This document shows, one piece after another, positions 11,271-49,483 of a stretch of DNA of 64,000 nucleotides (the stretch's first letter is position 1; the number at the start of each line of letters is the position of its first letter). A program made the position numbers and the translations under genes. This DNA is from Saccoglossus kowalevskii (taxonomy: Eukaryota; Hemichordata; Enteropneusta; Harrimaniidae), in assembly GCF_000003605.2 (NCBI RefSeq), contig NW_003126890.1, forward strand, positions 76,141 through 140,140, read 5' to 3'. Below the pieces are notes generated by a model that ran no database searches, was not told the DNA's origin, and was given only the letters and a program-made list of their open reading frames with translations.

Positions 11271-14130
11271 TAGACTTCAATGACTACAACTCCTTTTATG
11301 AACCCACTAAAAATATAGTAAATTTTCTGAGACATAAAAAAAACGTGTAAAAAAAATATGTTTGCAATTTATGATTCATCACATAGTTTCAGTGCTGAAG
11401 CAACACTGTGGGGTAAATTGTTGGCTGCAAGAAGCTCTTCGGCCTATACAACTCGTGATGATAAATCTTCGGCATTTTTTTAATGATATGTCCAACCCGT
11501 AGCTGTACACCATTGTTCAAAAACAGAGACTACACGTACTAATACAATAAGTTAACTAAATTTGGCTGATACACTTGGAACAAAACAGTGATATATGCCG
11601 TCATTAACGTGAAGAATGCAAAACTAATGAACCAAACTAGGAAAGTACAGTGTGGTGTTGTCGTGTCAATCCCGTTCGATCCCCACACTTTACTAACTGA
11701 GCGAAAATTAGCACAAGACAAACTGCCTATTCAGGACCACCACATCATTCAGAGAGAGACTACCATTACATTATTGTTTCAATGTTGTTTTAATATTTAA
11801 CATCAGGTGCTTGAACGCGATCTTCATTACACCATCGCGGAAAAACCGAATAAAAGCCTGCCTATTTATAACAACCTGTTTTGGTTGGCTGCTGTTGAGC
11901 CGAGACGGCATAACTTCACGATTGACATTTAAAGCTCGTTGCGACCTAAATGCATCTTACTATGCATTACTCATTACGGAGTCAAGCGATTTAAACAATG
12001 ATAATTATTTTAATTAATGCTGTTTGTTTTGTTATGTTTTAATCTACGATCATAAATCTATTAACTTCCAAAATTTAGGGGGTTCGACAAATCCGGCTAA
12101 ATAAATAATCGATGAAAATAAAAAAATAAAAAATGTGCAAATGAAAGCGTTACATAACTATTTAAAGTTGGCTTGAAATTAATTCCTGTGAAAAACTATA
12201 CATTCATGTCATAGAATATAAATGCAATTATATTACACAATAAAACACGTACATTCCACCCTATTACTCAACCTAATAGTTTAATATTGATGCGTTGGTA
12301 AAAGCCATGTTAATTATTACATACAGATTTACTCATATATCTTGCATGCAAATTGAAACTAACACAGGAAGTATGGTGTTTGTCATTTGGTTTTAGTAAT
12401 TCATCTCGTTACTTCAGATTATTATCTACTTTCGTTTGTGGGTGTACGTGGGTGTGTGTGCATCATGTTGCTGTCGGTGTTCTCGTGGCATTTTATATAT
12501 AATTTGTCTGCCTGTTGAACGCAAGTAGAATACAAGTTCATTATTATATTAAATATTTATATTGTGTGCAATACCATTAGTTTTTCTCAATGGCACTGTG
12601 TTATTATTGTTTCTAAAATATGTTAATGTAATTTCTGAATGTCAGTCGATTTATCTTTTGTTTGTATTGCTTGACGGTCAACTCCGACAGATAAAATCTC
12701 TATAAACCTCCTGGAAACGTAGTATTTACCACAAATTCTCCCTTCAATTTTCATTAATTTATGCATTCCATACACAAATGTAAAATGAATTTTAAGACAT
12801 TGAAAAAGGTTTGTATCTGTCCTAGTCAGTTGATATTGCTTGCTGACAATACGCCCAGGAACCAGATCAAAAGTAAACCAGACAATTTAAAAAAGTGTTA
12901 CATCAATGGCATTGATATGTGTCGAGAGACTCAGATTGTGGGCGAGGTAAAGGCCCGATAAAACTCTGGACAGAGCAGTGCAAGAGAGTGAGTAGTTAGA
13001 AATAATTGGAGACTACTTATTACAAAGCACAACACAAGAATATATGATTGTGCAAATATATTCCAATATCGCAATATTCCATTCCATCCGCATTCGAATC
13101 AATCTAGGCAGTTGAATGACGTCAATAATAAATTGGTATTGAGCCAGATTGAACTGTACAAATGTGACGCTATCACAATGTAGTATTCAGTCAGTATGTG
13201 CCATACCACTCCTAGCAATTATACAAATTAATGCTACTTTCTCTAACACGATTATGTCGATGAAGACACAGGATAGAACAATGATGTGATATTATTGTGT
13301 ACATTCAGCTAGATTTAGGGGTTCGTACATCACTATGAAAGGTTTGCAATCCGGATGTCACAAGATTCATAGCTCTGTAAAGCCGTTGTAATGTTGTGTT
13401 TTCATGGAATACAGCGTACATGTAGTAGATATACACAAAACACGGGATCATTGATGAGATGGAGTAAAAAGACGGGAACACTGGGACAAGATATGTTAAA
13501 AAATCTACGCATAAATATATGTCCACAAAACACATTTCATGTACCATATCTCTTTATCTTTTTTATTTAAGAACATGTTATTATGCAACATGCAATATTG
13601 CGTACTTGATTGATTGGTCAAATATGTGACATTGCAAGGGCAAATTTCATTTTTTTCACAATTTCCCGATAAAAACTGAATGAACATATATAAAGTATTG
13701 GAACTCTAAACTAAAAAACTATTAGTATCTTTAATCAGTGTTCAATTGCCTATCGTACATCATTATACACTTTTTGAAATTTATCAAATCTAAGAGTAAA
13801 TGATTATTGGAGAACGGCAGAACAACATTTATTGTCTATTTATCGCTTATCGAAGCTACCAGTTCTTTTCCGGTGCTATTTTTAAATTTGCCGGCTTTCT
13901 GTATGTTCATTCAAATTCAATGTAGATTAAGCTATGATGTGTTTTTGGGTATCATGCTGCCCATGCGACAGAGCTGTCACGATCAGTAAAATACGTAGGT
14001 AAATAAAACGGTATTTAAGGTATCTCTATTTGTTTCTTTTTGTAGCGTTTCACAGAGGGCGTTATTTAACTTCAATAGATTGAAACGTGATATATAAAGA
14101 TAAGAAGAAAGTTCCAATGTTTTGCGAAGC
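11271..14130. other. No gene seen upstream of the GPCR
   Basis: Short unrecognised frames only. The last 200 bp before the GPCR start contains no obvious upstream coding exon. A CACAGAGGGCGTT word lies at about 14048 (see findings). A GTTCGATCCC word near 11673 is not part of a tRNA. Confidence 0.4.
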
Positions 14131-15201
14131 ATGGTGAATATCACTAATCCGAAGAAAATAATTGTATATTTCACATCTGGACCAATCACGTGGATCGACA
14201 TTTGTCTTGTTATAATTGGCATCACAGGGCTTGTCGGAAACAGTTTGGTCTGTATCGTTTTTTTGTCAATAAAGAAACTGCGAACAACGACAAATTATTT
14301 CATCGTTAGTTTGTCTGTTGCCGACTTGATTTCATCGCTGCTTTTTCTAGTCCGTACCATTAAGATTTCAATTCCAGGCGGAGTTGCTGGTGAGCTGTAC
14401 TGTAGACTGTTCTACTCTGGGGCTCTTACTTGGATTTGCGTTAAAGCATCTGTTTTTAACTTGGTTGCAGTTACTATTGAACGTCTATGTGCCATTGTGT
14501 ATGCCATAAAGCACAAGGTATATTTCACAAAATCAAGAGCAATTGTACTTTTAACATTTGTTTGGATTTGTGCATTTGTCTTGGAAAGTTTTCTGTTTTA
14601 TATGTACGCATATAAAAATGGACAGTGCATTTCCGGCTGGCCAAGTGACGCATTCAGAAAGTTTGTTTCAGTTGTAAATTTGACGGTGTCGTATATTATA
14701 CCTTTGTTTGTCATACTAGTGGCATATACGAAGGTATTGATTTATCTGAAAACACATGCAAAATCTATTTCCAGGGACAACCAATCGAATACAAACACTG
14801 CGTACACACTGCTGAGAACTCGCCGAAAATTGGTGAAGCTACTACTATTTGTGTGTGTAATTTTCAATATATGTTGGATGCCTATACACTTTGTATTTTT
14901 AGCTTATAACTTTGATGCACCGTTGGACTATGATGCAAACTATTTTCAGTTTTGTATTTTACTTGGCTATGCTAACTCTTGCGTGAACCCGTTTATTTAC
15001 GCATTTAAGAGTGATCACTTTAGAAGAGGAATTCTGTTCATATTTTGCGGTAAGAAAACAAGGGGGAATTCGATTACAAATGTACCGACAGGGATCGCAT
15101 GGCCAGCAAGTAGTATCAATCCTCAATTACGAACTGGTAGGACCCCTCTACAGGAAAATTGTGTCACACAGACTGTTGGTATATCAACAATTTCATCCTG
15201 A
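14131..15201 (+). CDS. Class A (rhodopsin-like) G-protein-coupled receptor
   Basis: An intronless 356-residue seven-transmembrane receptor. The ATG at 14131 has a purine at -3 and G at +4. The open frame extends only three codons further upstream, without another ATG. Landmarks: an N-glycosylation site N3-I-T; TM1 with GNSLV (N37 = N1.50); TM2 with LSVADL (D65 = D2.50); C91 before TM3, pairing with C166 in the second extracellular loop; ERL at 117-119 in place of DRY; W145 in TM4; Pro in TM5 (SYIIPLF); CWMP in TM6; NPFIY in TM7. The C-terminal tail is about 60 residues and Ser/Thr-rich. These are the signatures of family A. The aromatic-rich TM6-TM7 region suggests a peptide or orphan receptor, but I cannot name the ligand. 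A single-exon structure is common for such receptors and also fits a retrocopy. No related receptor is next to it. Confidence 0.93.
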   Translation: MVNITNPKKIIVYFTSGPITWIDICLVIIGITGLVGNSLVCIVFLSIKKLRTTTNYFIVSLSVADLISSLLFLVRTIKISIPGGVAGELYCRLFYSGALTWICVKASVFNLVAVTIERLCAIVYAIKHKVYFTKSRAIVLLTFVWICAFVLESFLFYMYAYKNGQCISGWPSDAFRKFVSVVNLTVSYIIPLFVILVAYTKVLIYLKTHAKSISRDNQSNTNTAYTLLRTRRKLVKLLLFVCVIFNICWMPIHFVFLAYNFDAPLDYDANYFQFCILLGYANSCVNPFIYAFKSDHFRRGILFIFCGKKTRGNSITNVPTGIAWPASSINPQLRTGRTPLQENCVTQTVGISTISS

Positions 15202-16599: not shown

Positions 16600-18118
16600 C
16601 TTTGATTATATGTCAAATAACTCTCCACACCACCACATACAATCTTTCTTTAATTATGTAAGTTGATTTTCCATACCACCACATGCACACTTTTTAATTA
16701 TATGTCAAATGACTTTCCACATAATCTCATAATCTTTTTTTTTTATTATATACCAGATGCTTTCCACATCATCACATACATTCTTTCTTTAGTCATATGT
16801 CAGAAGACTTCCCACACCACCACATACACATAATCTTTGATTATATGTCAGATAACTTTCCACACCACCACATACACATATTCTTCGATTATACATCCGT
16901 TGATTTTCCACACCAGCACATACAATCTTTCTTTGATTATATGTCAGCTGACTTTTCACACCACCACCACATACAATCTTTCTTTGATTATATGTCAGCT
17001 GACTTTCCACACCACCACCACATACAATCTTTCTTTGATTATATGTCAGCTTACTTTCCACACCACCACATACAATCTTTATTTGATTATATGTCAGTTG
17101 ACTTTCCACACGACCACATACAATCTTTCTTTGATTATATGTCAGTTGACTTTTCACACCACCACATACAATCTGTATTTGATTATATGTCAGCTTACTT
17201 TCCACACTACCACATACAATCTTTATTTGATTATATGTCAGCTTACTTTCCACACCACCACATACAATCTTTATTTGATTATATGTCAGATGACTTTCCA
17301 CACCACCACATACAATCTTTCTTTGATTATATGTCAACTTACTTTCCAAACCACCACATACAATCTTTATTTGATTATATGTCAGTTGACTTTCCACACT
17401 ACCACATACAATCTTTCTTTGATTATATGTCAGTTGACTTTTCACACCACCACACACAATCTTTTTTTGATTATATGTCAGTTGACTTTTCACACCACCA
17501 CATACAATCTTTCTTTGATTATATGTCAGCTTACTTTCAACACCACCACATACAATCTTTATTTGATTATATGTCAGTTGACTTTCCACACTACCACATA
17601 CAATCTTTTTTTGATTATATGTCAGTTGATTTTTCACACCACCACATACAATCTTTCTTTGATTATATGTCAGCTTACTTTCCACACCACCACCACATAC
17701 AATCTTTCTTTGATTATATGTCAGCTTACTTTCCACACCACCACATACAATCTTTATTTGATTATATGTCAGCTTACTTTCCACACCACCACATACAATC
17801 TTTCTTTGATTATATGTCAGCTTACTTTGCACACCACCACATAAATCTTTCTTTGATTATTTGTCAGTTGACTTTCCACACTACCACATACAATCTTTCT
17901 TTGATTATATGTCAGATGACTTTCCACACCACCACATACAATCTTTCTTTGATTATATGTCAGCTTACTTTCCAAACCACCACATACAATCTTTATTTGA
18001 TTATATGTCAGTTGACTTTCCACACCACCACATAAATCTTTCTTTGATTATTTGTCAGCTTACTTTCCACACTACCACATACAATCTTTTTTTGATTATA
18101 TGTCAGAGGACTTTCCAA
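16600..18118. repeat. 48-bp minisatellite, about 31 copies
   Basis: Unit (48 bp): GATTATATGTCAGTTGACTT, TCCACACCACCACATACAAT, CTTTCTTT. Sporadic 51-bp units have an extra CAC in the CACCAC run (about 16961, 17007, 17690), and shortened units ending in 'ataaatctt' occur at about 17840 and 18030. The first five or six copies (16600-16830) are strongly diverged, the middle is homogeneous, and the right edge decays at 18118. Because 48 and 51 are multiples of three and the unit has no stop in several phases, the array is open for 335-412 codons in two forward frames and 347 in one reverse frame. I read it as non-coding: three frames are equally open, variants do not favour synonymous changes, and there is no promoter or splice context. 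Confidence 0.95.
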
Positions 18119-18593
18119 ATGTCTTGTGACTTTCAACACATTTACGCACAAAATATAAACCGGTAATCCATTCCTATATGACAAATAGATGCAAACAGAT
18201 CTTGTCATCTGTATTTTACGACATTATAAGTTTTTCAAATAATGCATCAAGAAATCCAGACTCTTTATTCCCAGTCTTTACTTACTGACGGGGTGAAGAG
18301 CCGTCTTCCCCGCCAAGGGGTCATGTTGTATGTCAAGTGATGTTGAAGCGTCAAATGGTAAAGTGTTAAGATTCCCTGACTGGTTAACCAGATTATGCTA
18401 GTTGTGAATCACGGCCTTTTACTCTAAGTGACTTTTTTTGGCTTGAAAGTCTTTAATATATTGTTGATGGAGGCTGTTGAGATATAATTCACATCCTAAA
18501 ATGAGGCATATTGGTCACAATGAATTTTGGGGTTATATTGCCCATTCTTCCTTCTATTACATGCACATGGTCTAGTCATATCTCGAATAAAAT

Positions 18594-22861: not shown

Positions 22862-28126
<5,265 letters not shown>

Positions 28127-30298: not shown

Positions 30299-30499
30299 GT
30301 GACAGTGCAATGTGTAGAAGATGGCAATGTACTGTGACATTATATCAGGGTAATTTAATTAGGTTTTTGTTTCAGTATCCAAGATGTACATGTGAAGATG
30401 TAAATTTCATTATGCAAACCGTTGACATTTAAAAGTTTGCCTTGGTTCACAAATTTACTACTGTCGCATACGACTTATTTACCACTTCCGTGTTACTGA

Positions 30500-30615
30500 G
30501 AATGTTCTAGAACCGTACTGTGTCTGGGTGGAATATTCTAGATTTTTTAAGAAACTGGTTGAATAAGTAATAGAACACTGTAGGAGGCAATAGAAGGTAA
30601 TGGAACATTCTAGAA
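30500..30615. promoter_or_regulatory. Cluster of three heat-shock elements
   Basis: 30500-30512 reads GAAtgTTCtaGAA, a perfect three-unit HSF site. 30531-30543 reads GAAtaTTCtaGAt, one base off. 30603-30615 reads GAAcaTTCtaGAA, perfect. All share the core TTCTAGA and lie 65-180 bp upstream of the TATA box, the range in which HSF acts at heat-shock promoters. Confidence 0.8.
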
Positions 30616-30680
30616 ATTTATAGTAAATTCCAGACTCATTATGTATGCGGATGTAATGGTCTATTTATAGACAGTGTGGG

Positions 30681-30690
30681 TATATATAGG
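30681..30690 (+). promoter_or_regulatory. TATA box of the LTR
   Basis: TATATATAGG followed by GGAG. A perfect MEF2-type word (CTATTTATAG) lies 11 bp upstream at 30661-30670 and may be a second TATA-like element. Confidence 0.55.
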
Positions 30691-30972
30691 GGAGTTGTTC
30701 AGCACTGAGTTCAGATCGGAGATCTCGTTGAATTGTATTGGAGTTTAAGTATCTAGTCATTGGAGTAGTGGAGTTTTACCGCGTCATTGTACTTGATGTT
30801 TGCAGAGTATAATAATACCAGTACCCGTTGGAACCTAATCTGTTGGCTCCGTGTTCGTATGTTATCATCGCCGCCAGTGAAGTCTTTCTGTTACTTTTGC
30901 CATTTTGGTATTTGAACCATCACACCTGTACTATACCAATTACGGTAATATTACGTTACGTGTGACAACTAC

Positions 30973-34612: not shown

Positions 34613-34879
34613 GTAACCAGATAAATAGGTATGCTGTATATCAACCAAACTCTAAACTTAAATTGGCTTCTTTTTTATGGTAGTAATTCACTTGTATGAT
34701 ATATTCAATGAAATGGCTTCACTTTTCATGCAAATAACACACATTTCTGTTTGGCTAATGAGGCTGGTAATACAACAAATACCTTCAGCTCGGACAGCCA
34801 TGAAATACAGTTGTATGTGGTGATTGGCCTCTGCAGATACAATCACACAGCAGGGCATCTAGAACCATACTACATACAT

Positions 34880-35160
34880 TAGTGTGGTGTAATACCATGT
34901 CAGTGTGGTGTAATACCATGTCAGTGTGGTGTAATACCATGTCAGTGTGGTGTAATACCATGTCAGTGCGGTGTAATACCATGTCAGTGTGGTGTAATAC
35001 CATGTCAGTGTGGTGTAATACCATGTCAGTGCGGTGTAATACCATGTCAGTGCGGTGTAATACCATGTCAGTGTGGTGTAATACCATGTCAGTGTGGTGT
35101 AATACCATGAAAGTGCGATGTAATACCATGAAAGTGTGGTATAATACCATACTGGTGTCA
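34880..35160. repeat. 21-bp minisatellite, about 13 copies
   Basis: The unit is AGTGTGGTGTAATACCATGT plus C, with G/C variants (GTGTGG/GTGCGG) and diverged units at the right edge. The period is a multiple of three, so it is open for 100-150 codons in several frames (for example repeats of WCNTMSV forward). Non-coding by context. Confidence 0.93.
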
Positions 35161-36520
35161 AGTAATAACATATTGCCGAGGTGTAATAATTTTACAGTTG
35201 AAGTGACAAGTTTGAGAAGCCCTATATGCATGCATACACACCACACCAAGTGGTAGCCTTAAGACAGATGCTCTAACAATACAAATACACATATTTGTAC
35301 ACTTTTAAAAACAAAATACTTACTTATACAAAATAACTATGTAAATTTACTTACAATAATAAAAAGTCACTCAGTAGCACCTTTATGCGAGAAGAAAGCA
35401 TACAATATTGAGCTTAAAATATGCTGAGTTGTTTAAAAAAAACATTATATAAAATCCAACCATTGAGTCACTCTGGTATATTAAAGGCACTGATCCTGAA
35501 TTCCCATTTTTAATGGTGTCACTCTGTTTTCTGTACCGATATCCAGAATTGCAAAGCATCACACCCAATTATAATAGTTTAAAAAACAAGGAGGAAGTGA
35601 CCTCATAATAATGAAGTGAGATTACATATTGCAAGTACATTTGAAAATTCAGTGGTTTTACACTCAGAATCAATTTGCATTATGAAAACAAAGTGTATAT
35701 CAGCACGTTTATTCATGAGCACTGAAATATAATACCTGAAATTGTCATCGCCATATTTGGATGTTTTCCCGAAGACAGTTGTGAGACTCCAAGTCAACTC
35801 ACTTTGGAGAGCAATTCACTAAATACAAACAAGTAATTGATTATGACTGGCCTTATCAGCTGATTTCACCATATTGGGCAGATTATTAAGATTATATAAA
35901 AATGTAAATTAAATAAAAAAAAAAAAAAAAAAGGAAAGGGAGAAAAAATATCTACAGTGAATACAGTTTTTATAAAAGTTGTTGAAAATGTAGTAAAATA
36001 TTTAAAAAAACATGTGAAATTTTGCATATTTTAAAATATCTGTACTATGCGATACACAAGTCAATTTTGCATAGATGATGGAGATACATTTGGTCAAACT
36101 AGCCTTCACAAAGTTTCAACTGCTGCGGCAAGAAATTACTTTTCGATAATGTTTTGGTGAAGTCACTACTAATAATTTCAGTCCTTTGCAAACGCATCAT
36201 ACATTGTCGTGTCTTACTGACATCCACAGCTTACTGTGTTCTTAATAAGGCTTTAAATGCAAATGAGCCAAACAAACATAACCATATAAGGCAAGACTTT
36301 TTTTTTTAGTATTGATAGAAACTGTAAAATATTGCAGGCTCTATCCACCCATTCAAAACAGATAGGTCTCTTCTAAACCTGTATTTAACAAAATCTAAAT
36401 CATAATCCTCCTTCGTATTGTCATGATTAACATGCAAATGAGTATTTCCTTATATGGCAATATTAAGGACTATAAGAGGAAATTTGCAGCAAATTGTAAT
36501 ACAAAGTTGCTAACAGTAAA
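35161..36520. other. Smoothelin 3' UTR and downstream DNA
   Basis: No other gene seen. On the minus strand the first AATAAA that I see after the stop is at 35708-35713, about 800 bp away, a candidate poly(A) signal. An A-tract lies at about 35914-35934. Confidence 0.4.
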
Positions 36521-46539: not shown

Positions 46540-48305
46540 CCTATCAAGAATTGGAATAGATGTAGATCCTTATCTTGGAATGGAATTGATGTAAACCCCT
46601 CATCATGCAATGGAATTGATGTAAACCCCTTATACAATTAAATAGATGTAAACCCCTTATCATGCAATGGAATTGATGTAAACCCATTATACAATGGAAT
46701 AGATGTAAACCCCTTATCATGCAATGGAATACATGTAAACCCCTCATAATGCAATGGAATTGATGTAAACCCCTCATAATGCAATGGAATTGATGTAAAC
46801 CCCTTATCATACAATGGAATTGATGTAAACCCCTTATCATGCAATGGAATTGATGTAAACCCCTTATCATGCAATGGAATTGATGTAAACCCCTCATCAT
46901 GCAATGGAATTGATGTAAACCCCTCATCATGCAATGGAATTGATGTAAACCCCTCATCATGCAATGGAATTGATGTAAACCCCTTATACAATGGAATAGA
47001 TGTAAACCCCTTATACAATGGAATAGATGTAAACCCCTTATCATGCAATGGAATTGATGTAAACCCCTTATACAATGGAATTGATGTAAACCCCTTATAC
47101 AATGGAATAGATGTAAACCCCTTATACAATGGAATAGATGTAAACCCCTTATCATGCAATGGAATTGATGTAAACCCCTTATACAATGGAATTGATGTAA
47201 ACCCCTTATACAATGGAATAGATGTAAACCCCTTATACAATGGAATAGATGTAAACCCCTTATACAATGGAATAGATGTAAACCCCTTATCATGCAATGG
47301 AATTGATGTAAACCCCTTATCATGCAATGGAATTGATGTAAACCCCTTATCATACAATGGAATTGATGTAAACCCCTTATCATGCAACGGAATTGATGTA
47401 AACCCCTTATCATGCAATGGAATTGATGTAAACCCCTCATCATGCAATGGAATTGATGTAAAACCCTTATCATACAATGGAATTGATGTAAACCCCTTAT
47501 CATGCAATGGAATTGATGTAAACCCCTCATCATGCAATGGAATAGATGTAAACCCTTTATCATACAATAGAATAGATGTAAACCCCTTATACAATGGAAT
47601 AGATGTAAACCCCTTATCATACAATGGAATTGATGTAAACCCCTTATCATGCAATGGAATTGATGTAAACCCCTCATCATACAATGGAATTGATGTAAAC
47701 CCCTTATCATGCAATGGAATAGATGTAAACCCTTTATCATACAATGGAATAGATGTAAACCCCTTATACAATGGAATAGATGTAAACCCCTTATCATACA
47801 ATGGAATTGATGTAAACCCCTTATCATACAATGGAATTGATGTAAACCCCTCATCATACAATGGAATTGATGTAAACCCCTCATCATGCAATGGAATTGA
47901 TGTAAACCCCTTATCATACAATGGAATAGATGTAAACCCCTTATCATACAATGGAATTGATGTAAACCCCTTATCATGCAATGGAATTGATGTAAACCCC
48001 TCATCATACAATGGAATTGATGTAAACCCCTCATCATGCAATGGAATTGATGTAAACCCCTTATCATGCAATGGAATGGATGTAAACCACTTATCATGCA
48101 ATGGAATTGATGTAAACCCCTTATCATGCAANNNNNNNNNNNNNNNNNNNNNNNNNNNNNNNNNNNNNNNNNNNNNNNNNNAAACCCCTTATCATACAAT
48201 GGAATTGATGTAAACCCCTTATCATGCAATGGAATTGATGTAAACCCCTTATCATACAATGGAATTGATGTAAACCCCTTATCATGCAATGGAATTGATG
48301 TAAAC
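46540..48305. repeat. 27/30-bp minisatellite with higher-order structure, about 60 copies
   Basis: The 30-bp unit is CAATGGAATTGATGTAAACC, CCTTATCATG. The 27-bp unit lacks three bases (TTATACAATGG). Further variants are AATAGATG/AATTGATG and CCTCAT/CCTTAT. The order of variants repeats in blocks: a 111-bp block (27+27+30+27) at about 46982 and 47092, and a 177-bp block at about 47551 and 47728. Both periods are multiples of three, so the minus strand is open for 590 and 497 codons in two frames. No translation is likely. A 50-N gap sits inside it. Confidence 0.95.
48132..48181. other. Assembly gap (50 N) in the minisatellite
   Basis: Exactly 50 N. The true array length is therefore unknown and the array is probably longer than shown. 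Confidence 0.99.
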
Positions 48306-49483
48306 CCCCCAATCATAGCAGCAGATAACCAATGTCAATCAGAAATGTTAATAAGTAAGAAACCATATTACCAAGTGGAACTGAATGACTAAACTGAACA
48401 CAATACACAAAGAAAACTCATTAAGATGCAGTGATTGTGTTTTATTGAAAAATGTTTCCCATTCAGCACACAAATTAAGCATTTCTTGCATTTCCATTAG
48501 TCAAGGTTGGTGAGTATGTACATCAGCAGAGACTCGAGAATATTACCTCAAATCACAAATCAGTTTAGATTAGTTTGGGCAAATGAAAAGAAAAAAATAT
48601 TTTGGATTCGAATAACTCTAATCAAAATTGATAGTCTATCCTAAACATTTTGTTTTTAACACAAGCAAAGACTTGATTAAAAATGCATCGACTATACACT
48701 AGCACCAGCCTTAGCTGTCTTCTTAAAAAACAGCTATGAAACAAAACAGCAACAACTATCAGTGTATTAGGTTGAAATTAGAGAGTGTTTTCTATTCTGT
48801 TTTCTCCATGGGTTGCAAATTGGCTTTATTTTTTATTTTTATTTTATTTTTTATTTGTTTCATATAGTTTTTAATTTTCTTTCTGTAAGACCCTTTTTAT
48901 CCTTTCCTAAGGATTTTATGTGTCTAATAAATATTATTACAGAAATTTAGCCAAATTGGGAGGATTTTACAAAAACATTCTTACACATGGGACTTGTTGA
49001 TCAAACTAGATGCAATCGGACTGATCGACAAAAGGATATCCAACGTGCATAACTTTTTGCAGTTTTTGAAGTGCATCTTAACACAAACATGCAATTTTTG
49101 CCTTACTTCAATATCTAACTGTAGTGTACATGTTGGCATTTATCTCAAATTACTTGCATTTGTACTTGTTTCAAACTCCCCCTATTCCTAGTAAGCTTTC
49201 TTAGAGTTGGGAATTGCCCCAGGGTGCTTACATTTAGACATGCAGCTTTACTCTGCCATAATCAATGACATAACTACATGTTTGATTGAACAGGCTATCC
49301 TGTCATTGATACCAAGTTTGTCAAAGAAAATATGTTGATCCCTTGTTTTCCTATCCTTATAAAGACCTTATGGGTCACAGCGACCAGACAGGACGCCATC
49401 AATAAATTCATCGCGTTTTTAGTGGTATACATGCAGATTTGTTTGATTGAAGATGATTCAGAAGTATTTTGCAATTTTTTTTA
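48306..49483. other. No gene seen
   Basis: T-rich tract near 48828-48870. No exon recognised on either strand. Confidence 0.4.

Follow-up and report, generated by a model that had tools for sequence, protein, structure and literature searches.

The window, the 64-kb stretch of DNA analysed here, contains a 506-bp solo LTR with two perfect heat-shock elements (HSEs) and a weaker one ahead of a TATA-like sequence. We think it probable that this LTR belonged to a young Ty3/Gypsy-type element of integrase-first domain order and that its HSEs make the LTR promoter stress-driven via HSF.

A solo LTR with clustered heat-shock elements

The LTR was found exactly where it had been predicted. It starts with TGTCGCA (TGTCGCATAC), ends with TGTGACA (ACGTGTGACA) and is bordered on either side by a perfect ACTAC target-site duplication (Table 1). 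Both features required of a solo LTR, TG...CA ends and a short target-site duplication, are present. The prediction of two perfect sites and one near-perfect HSF site before a TATA box was also borne out: two 9/9 matches to GAAnnTTCnnGAA and one 8/9 match were found 65-180 bp upstream of TATATATA. With these two perfect three-unit sites the LTR has the at least three adjacent nGAAn units looked for. Transcription would be expected to start about 25-32 bp 3' of TATATATA.

Table 1. Features of the solo LTR (window positions)
Feature	Position	Strand	Basis
5' target-site duplication ACTAC	30457-30461	.	sequence
Solo LTR, 506 bp, TGTCGCA...TGTGACA	30462-30967	+	ends, duplication, at least 40 copies
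HSE1 GAATGTTCTAGAA, 9/9	30500-30512	+	perfect in 44/49 LTRs
HSE2 (middle site) GAATATTCTAGAT, 8/9	30531-30543	+	absent from subfamily B
HSE3 GAACATTCTAGAA, 9/9; overlapping 8/9 frame at 30608	30603-30615	+	perfect in 45/49 LTRs
TATA-like TATATATA	30681-30688	+	sequence
3' target-site duplication ACTAC	30968-30972	.	sequence

Dinucleotide shuffles of the LTR (20,000) contained a mean of 0.0038 perfect sites and never two (0/20,000), a result that is optimistic because the motif was picked after inspection of the sequence. Over the whole window, HSE-like sites were not clearly enriched against shuffles: we counted 25 sites with no more than one mismatch, four of them in the LTR, against 19.6 expected, and 12 of 100 shuffles reached 25. 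HSE2 and HSE3 are identical at 12 of 13 positions, which possibly reflects copying of one site from the other, though HSEs resemble one another anyway.

Host HSF and HSP70-type genes

A search for the HSF DNA-binding domain gave one match (E 7.2e-23; 2 candidates), in a frame of 404 aa. We cannot assign this gene to HSF1 with confidence, and such a domain search could overlook an HSF1 gene interrupted by introns. The frame (L065:676-1890, minus strand) is short, with its DNA-binding domain within one exon, and may be an unusual HSF paralogue.

Three HSP70-type loci (C1346, C3049 and C449) were scanned upstream of the first matched exon. At C1346 we found GAATGTTCTGGAA approximately 340 bp upstream, close to a TATA-like TTTTTATA and accompanied by 8/9 sites; it equals HSE1 of the LTR except for one spacer base. 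Support comes from a single locus out of the three. Upstream of C3049 there was one 8/9 site, and the perfect site of this locus follows the first matched exon; no HSE was detected in the upstream scan of C449. Confidence in the stress-driven reading is slightly lowered because two of the three loci have no perfect upstream HSE.

These observations bear on the strongest alternative, namely that the GAAnnTTCnnGAA sites are real and serve something other than heat. They could be used by HSF in development or the germ line, or by another factor acting on the palindromic TTCTAGAA; the LTR promoter would then be constitutive or tissue-specific and heat would do little. Factors other than HSF also recognise palindromes like TTCTAGAA, and a germ-line function is known for some HSF genes. 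The shortness of the HSF-type gene and the two HSP70-type loci without a perfect upstream site both point this way. Against it stand the HSE-like 5-bp phasing of three sites within a single LTR and the near-identical site found ahead of the HSP70-type gene at C1346. We consider a non-heat role somewhat unlikely.

Copies of the LTR in the genome

We used the LTR as a query against the genome (572,110,611 bases, 4,830 contigs). Of 597 candidates 40 were scored, and all 40 proved to be copies, 95-100% identical to the query and each on a separate contig, so that the genome has at least 40; the 597 are first-look candidates only and not a copy number. The 506-bp repeat is therefore present elsewhere in the genome and, together with the fragmentary proviruses described below, these copies support the multi-copy retrotransposon family that had been proposed behind the solo LTR. 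Thirty loci were cut out, and as the best matches to the window copy they are biased towards its subfamily. In 25 of the 30 a perfect 5-bp duplication lies directly at the LTR ends, and these were read as solo LTRs. The duplications of L003 and L023 match at 4 of 5 bases, duplication status is unclear for L007, and the LTRs of L010 and L017 adjoin internal sequence.

With a 677-bp internal query we obtained 27 matches, at 25 candidates, against 597 candidates for the LTR. So large a deficit is consistent with a family made up mostly of solo LTRs, but the internal regions of many copies read N, which depresses the internal count. The K2P distance between paired LTRs was 0.010 (L049), 0.027 (L064/L036) and 0.029 (L035), and the family is young.

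Heat-shock elements across copies

We surveyed the HSEs in 49 LTRs from 47 elements (the pairs being L049/L049b and L036/L064), 43 of subfamily A and 6 of subfamily B. The internal query contributed 21 LTRs from 20 of its 27 loci. Dropped from it were L034 (the L017 LTR), L057 (the L045 element), L039, L056 and L060 (partial LTRs) and L044 and L051 (no LTR match), and L064 was added to the 49-LTR set. The counts exclude the partial 5' LTR of L035 and a fragment in L055. Also outside the 49 are L038 (truncated, both HSEs perfect), L047 (truncated, none perfect) and L010 (the L049 LTR).

HSE1 is perfect in 39/43 LTRs of subfamily A and 5/6 of subfamily B, HSE3 in 39/43 and 6/6, and at least one of the two in 47 of all 49. 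The copies sampled, subfamily B included, thus do not lack the HSEs. The middle site reaches at least 8/9 in 30/43 LTRs of A and in 0/6 of B; part of A has a weaker version with TCTATA instead of TCTAGA, and L055 has TCTATA as well. Conservation of the three sites, proposed as a check of the original prediction, therefore holds in most copies for HSE1 and HSE3 but not for the middle site, which B lacks.

When group states are called by majority (at least 60% of A and 4/6 of B), A and B are distinguished by two substitutions and by 11 indel columns, the latter spanning the middle site, with further indels in single B copies. In a tree built without the middle-site columns, and rooted for drawing only, a single branch (96/90) separates B from A, and most inner branches are weak. 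End-branch lengths of the 6 B copies and the 12 A copies from the internal query did not differ (Mann-Whitney P 0.45), so gain and loss of the middle site both stand.

Minor variants occurred at 1.0% in the core columns of HSE1 and HSE3 and at 2.0% in the rest of the LTR, and 20% of random position sets were as conserved as the HSE columns. Conservation thus gives no backing to the earlier suggestion of selection for HSF binding: it is no better than chance, leaving selection on the HSEs unproven, and it is uninformative because the family is too young.

To see related elements, we used the RNase H protein as a query (150 of 432 candidates scored), which found the element's own family first and then others at no more than 60% identity. 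Six stretches of approximately 1.3-1.4 kb downstream of RNase H, on five of the nearest contigs (C1757, C395 twice, C4564, C726 and C1595), contained no HSE frame of 8/9 or better; the LTR ends are unmapped there and part of an LTR may fall outside the stretches. From these sequences the HSE cluster looks specific to the family of the window LTR, and the relatives without HSEs imply that the wider group does not need them.

The same data allow a second alternative to be weighed, in which the HSE cluster was a chance feature of one founder LTR that recent amplification spread, functionless, through the genome. The youth of the copies, HSE columns not significantly more conserved than the remainder and the related elements on five contigs without sites are all consistent with it. 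It has to account, however, for two perfect sites that no shuffle of the LTR reproduced, and for a subfamily B that is perfect at HSE1 and HSE3 in nearly every copy (5/6 and 6/6). We find it improbable.

The parent element

On the 3' side of the L010 LTR we found TC followed by a PBS-like TGGGGGCTCGTCC, which we take to be complementary to the 3' end of tRNA-Pro, and directly 5' of the L017 LTR a PPT-like run, GAGAGGGGAGGCA. PBS-like sequence is present in L010/L031 and PPT-like sequence in L017/L032. Paired LTRs enclose internal sequence at L035, at L049 and at L064 with L036. The internal sequence matched the Pfam models RVT_1 (E 4.8e-23), RT_RNaseH (E 1e-40) and RT_RNaseH_2 (E 4e-36); models of this type match beyond Gypsy too.

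The domain order was pieced together from two fragmentary copies, L035 and L064, no single gap-free copy holding all domains. L035 is N-free and internally deleted, with approximately 1.7 kb between its LTRs. From the 5' LTR it reads integrase C-terminal-like piece, RT, RNase H, approximately 210 bp, PPT and 3' LTR; the integrase piece matched SH3_Tf2-1 (4.5e-5) and Integrase_p58_C (1.1e-4), both below the curated cut-off. L064 has a 5' LTR (92.5%), an ORF, an N run, an integrase H2C2 match (7.6e-11), a weak match to the integrase core (rve_3) and RNase H. Its first ORF, which has no credible Pfam match, is presumably gag by position. L049/L031 passes from the end of integrase straight to the 3' untranslated part and is thus deleted, with 50 N masking length. 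L049 (C2039) keeps PBS- and PPT-like ends around its internal deletion, part of which a 50-N run hides, and its LTRs are only 1% apart, which hints that deleted copies moved recently.

Taken as sequence, these fragments point to a parent of Ty3/Gypsy type in which integrase precedes RT and RNase H. Copies with internal sequence were indeed recovered, as fragmentary proviruses, but an intact copy was not found among those read, where N-masked stretches cannot be judged. In the related elements, TGTC-type LTR-like starts were seen by eye within approximately 200 bp after RNase H in L080, L082, L083 and L084, which suggests that these relatives may share the integrase-first order; L081 enters a tandem repeat and L085 has no TGTC-type start. 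A short element of another kind with 5-bp duplications, which would suit the fact that most of the 30 loci stand alone, was rejected as next to impossible, as in the fragmentary proviruses the LTR sequence borders internal sequence with PBS-like, integrase, RT, RNase H and PPT-like parts, and the paired copies L035, L049 and L064/L036 contradict it.

Neighbourhood of the LTR

Upstream of the LTR the window contains an ORF with a C-type lectin domain at 24045-24569 (Pfam 1.3e-11) and another at 27731-28126, possibly a membrane-side exon of the lectin gene; the two would form one gene. The LTR lies 2.3 kb beyond the last lectin-side ORF and its promoter faces away from the lectin gene. An effect on that gene, which is speculative, would need to be enhancer-like. 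The next ORF of at least 110 aa after the LTR starts 3.8 kb on, at 34785, and is repetitive.

Elsewhere in the window, a 365-aa open frame at 14104-15201 has a rhodopsin-type GPCR domain (7tm_1, 3.9e-45), and the stretches 16725-18166, 25739-26125, 34785-35258 and 46544-48334 are repetitive and open in several frames. Approximately 2.5 kb past the L010 element lies a transposase-type gene, a 333-aa ORF (L031:3435-4436, minus strand) with a TNP-like RNase H N-terminal domain (PF21787, 3.5e-27). One HSE-bearing copy, L002 (C3049:292343-292847, minus strand), was found approximately 18 kb upstream of the HSP70-type locus on C3049, in the same orientation. This HSP70-type gene or pseudogene (C3049:266776-273941) consists of several pieces with stops. 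The proximity is probably coincidental, and distance by itself proves nothing.

Comparison with known systems

In Brassicaceae, ONSEN/COPIA78, COPIA37, TERESTRA and ROMANIAT5 have LTRs with three- or four-unit HREs and are heat-induced; the ONSEN HRE arose by duplication of a proto-HRE, and HREs were gained in particular families (PMC5059998). The LTR described here resembles these COPIA families in its clustered nGAAn units and in the presence of solo LTRs. It differs in that they are Copia elements whose heat induction was measured, whereas ours is a probable Gypsy-type element of an animal-like genome, with two separate three-unit sites, known from sequence. HSE-bearing LTRs with a measured heat response are already known in plants (PMC5059998), and ours is likely an instance of the ONSEN kind in an animal. 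According to the same source, 16 Arabidopsis ONSEN fragments or solo LTRs gave no heat response, but they also had no functional HREs; solo LTRs may therefore be silent.

Integrase upstream of reverse transcriptase is described for the Gmr1 clade of Ty3/Gypsy (PMC8220671, PMC6238403), a clade also named in PMC8556966. What our element shares with it is the domain order, integrase before RT in a pol of probable Gypsy type, and an HSE-bearing LTR such as ours is not mentioned for the clade in the available text of PMC8220671 and PMC6238403. Among animals, Caenorhabditis Helitrons carry HSEs, with HSF-1 ChIP and expression evidence (PMC6927752). They too are mobile elements spreading HSF sites in an animal genome, but they are DNA transposons, whereas ours is an LTR element known from sequence. 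In Cryptococcus, TCN3 and TCN12 have putative HSEs in the LTR and raised mobility was measured at 37 C; TCN3 is a Ty3/gypsy element with 5-bp duplications (PMC12810828). Both are, like ours, LTR retrotransposons with putative HSEs in the LTR, but fungal. For the LTRs of Drosophila copia and gypsy, HSF sites have been predicted (PMC10745035); the two sites printed there have no perfect GAAnnTTCnnGAA, whereas the window LTR has two. Searches of open-licence papers uncovered no animal LTR element with a perfect HSE array, apart from the weaker sites predicted in PMC10745035, and no integrase-first Gypsy-type element with two perfect HSEs.

A probable stress-driven LTR promoter

If the LTR is indeed a stress-driven promoter, as we favour, recombination between the two LTRs of the element would have left the solo LTR, with the two perfect three-unit HSEs and the weaker one before the TATA box in its presumed U3. 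Heat or protein stress would activate host HSF trimers, which would bind the HSEs and drive transcription out of the LTR. Transposition of the element, or of deleted copies mobilised in trans, would then occur mainly under stress. Solo copies would keep the promoter, and might serve as scattered promoters or enhancers responsive to stress. We infer HSF binding, the induction of transcription by heat, movement in trans and any effects on neighbours. A bolder version, which we hold to be unlikely, is that the HSE array was self-built in the LTR of a young animal integrase-first Gypsy-type element that is now heat-driven, HSE3 perhaps having served as template for the middle site, and that the solo LTRs, perhaps several hundred, are dispersed HSF-responsive promoters.

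Subfamilies A and B provide a natural experiment, in which a contrast in heat response would measure the effect of one extra HSE. The young solo copies, in turn, make it possible to ask whether promoters that respond to stress are spreading into host genes.
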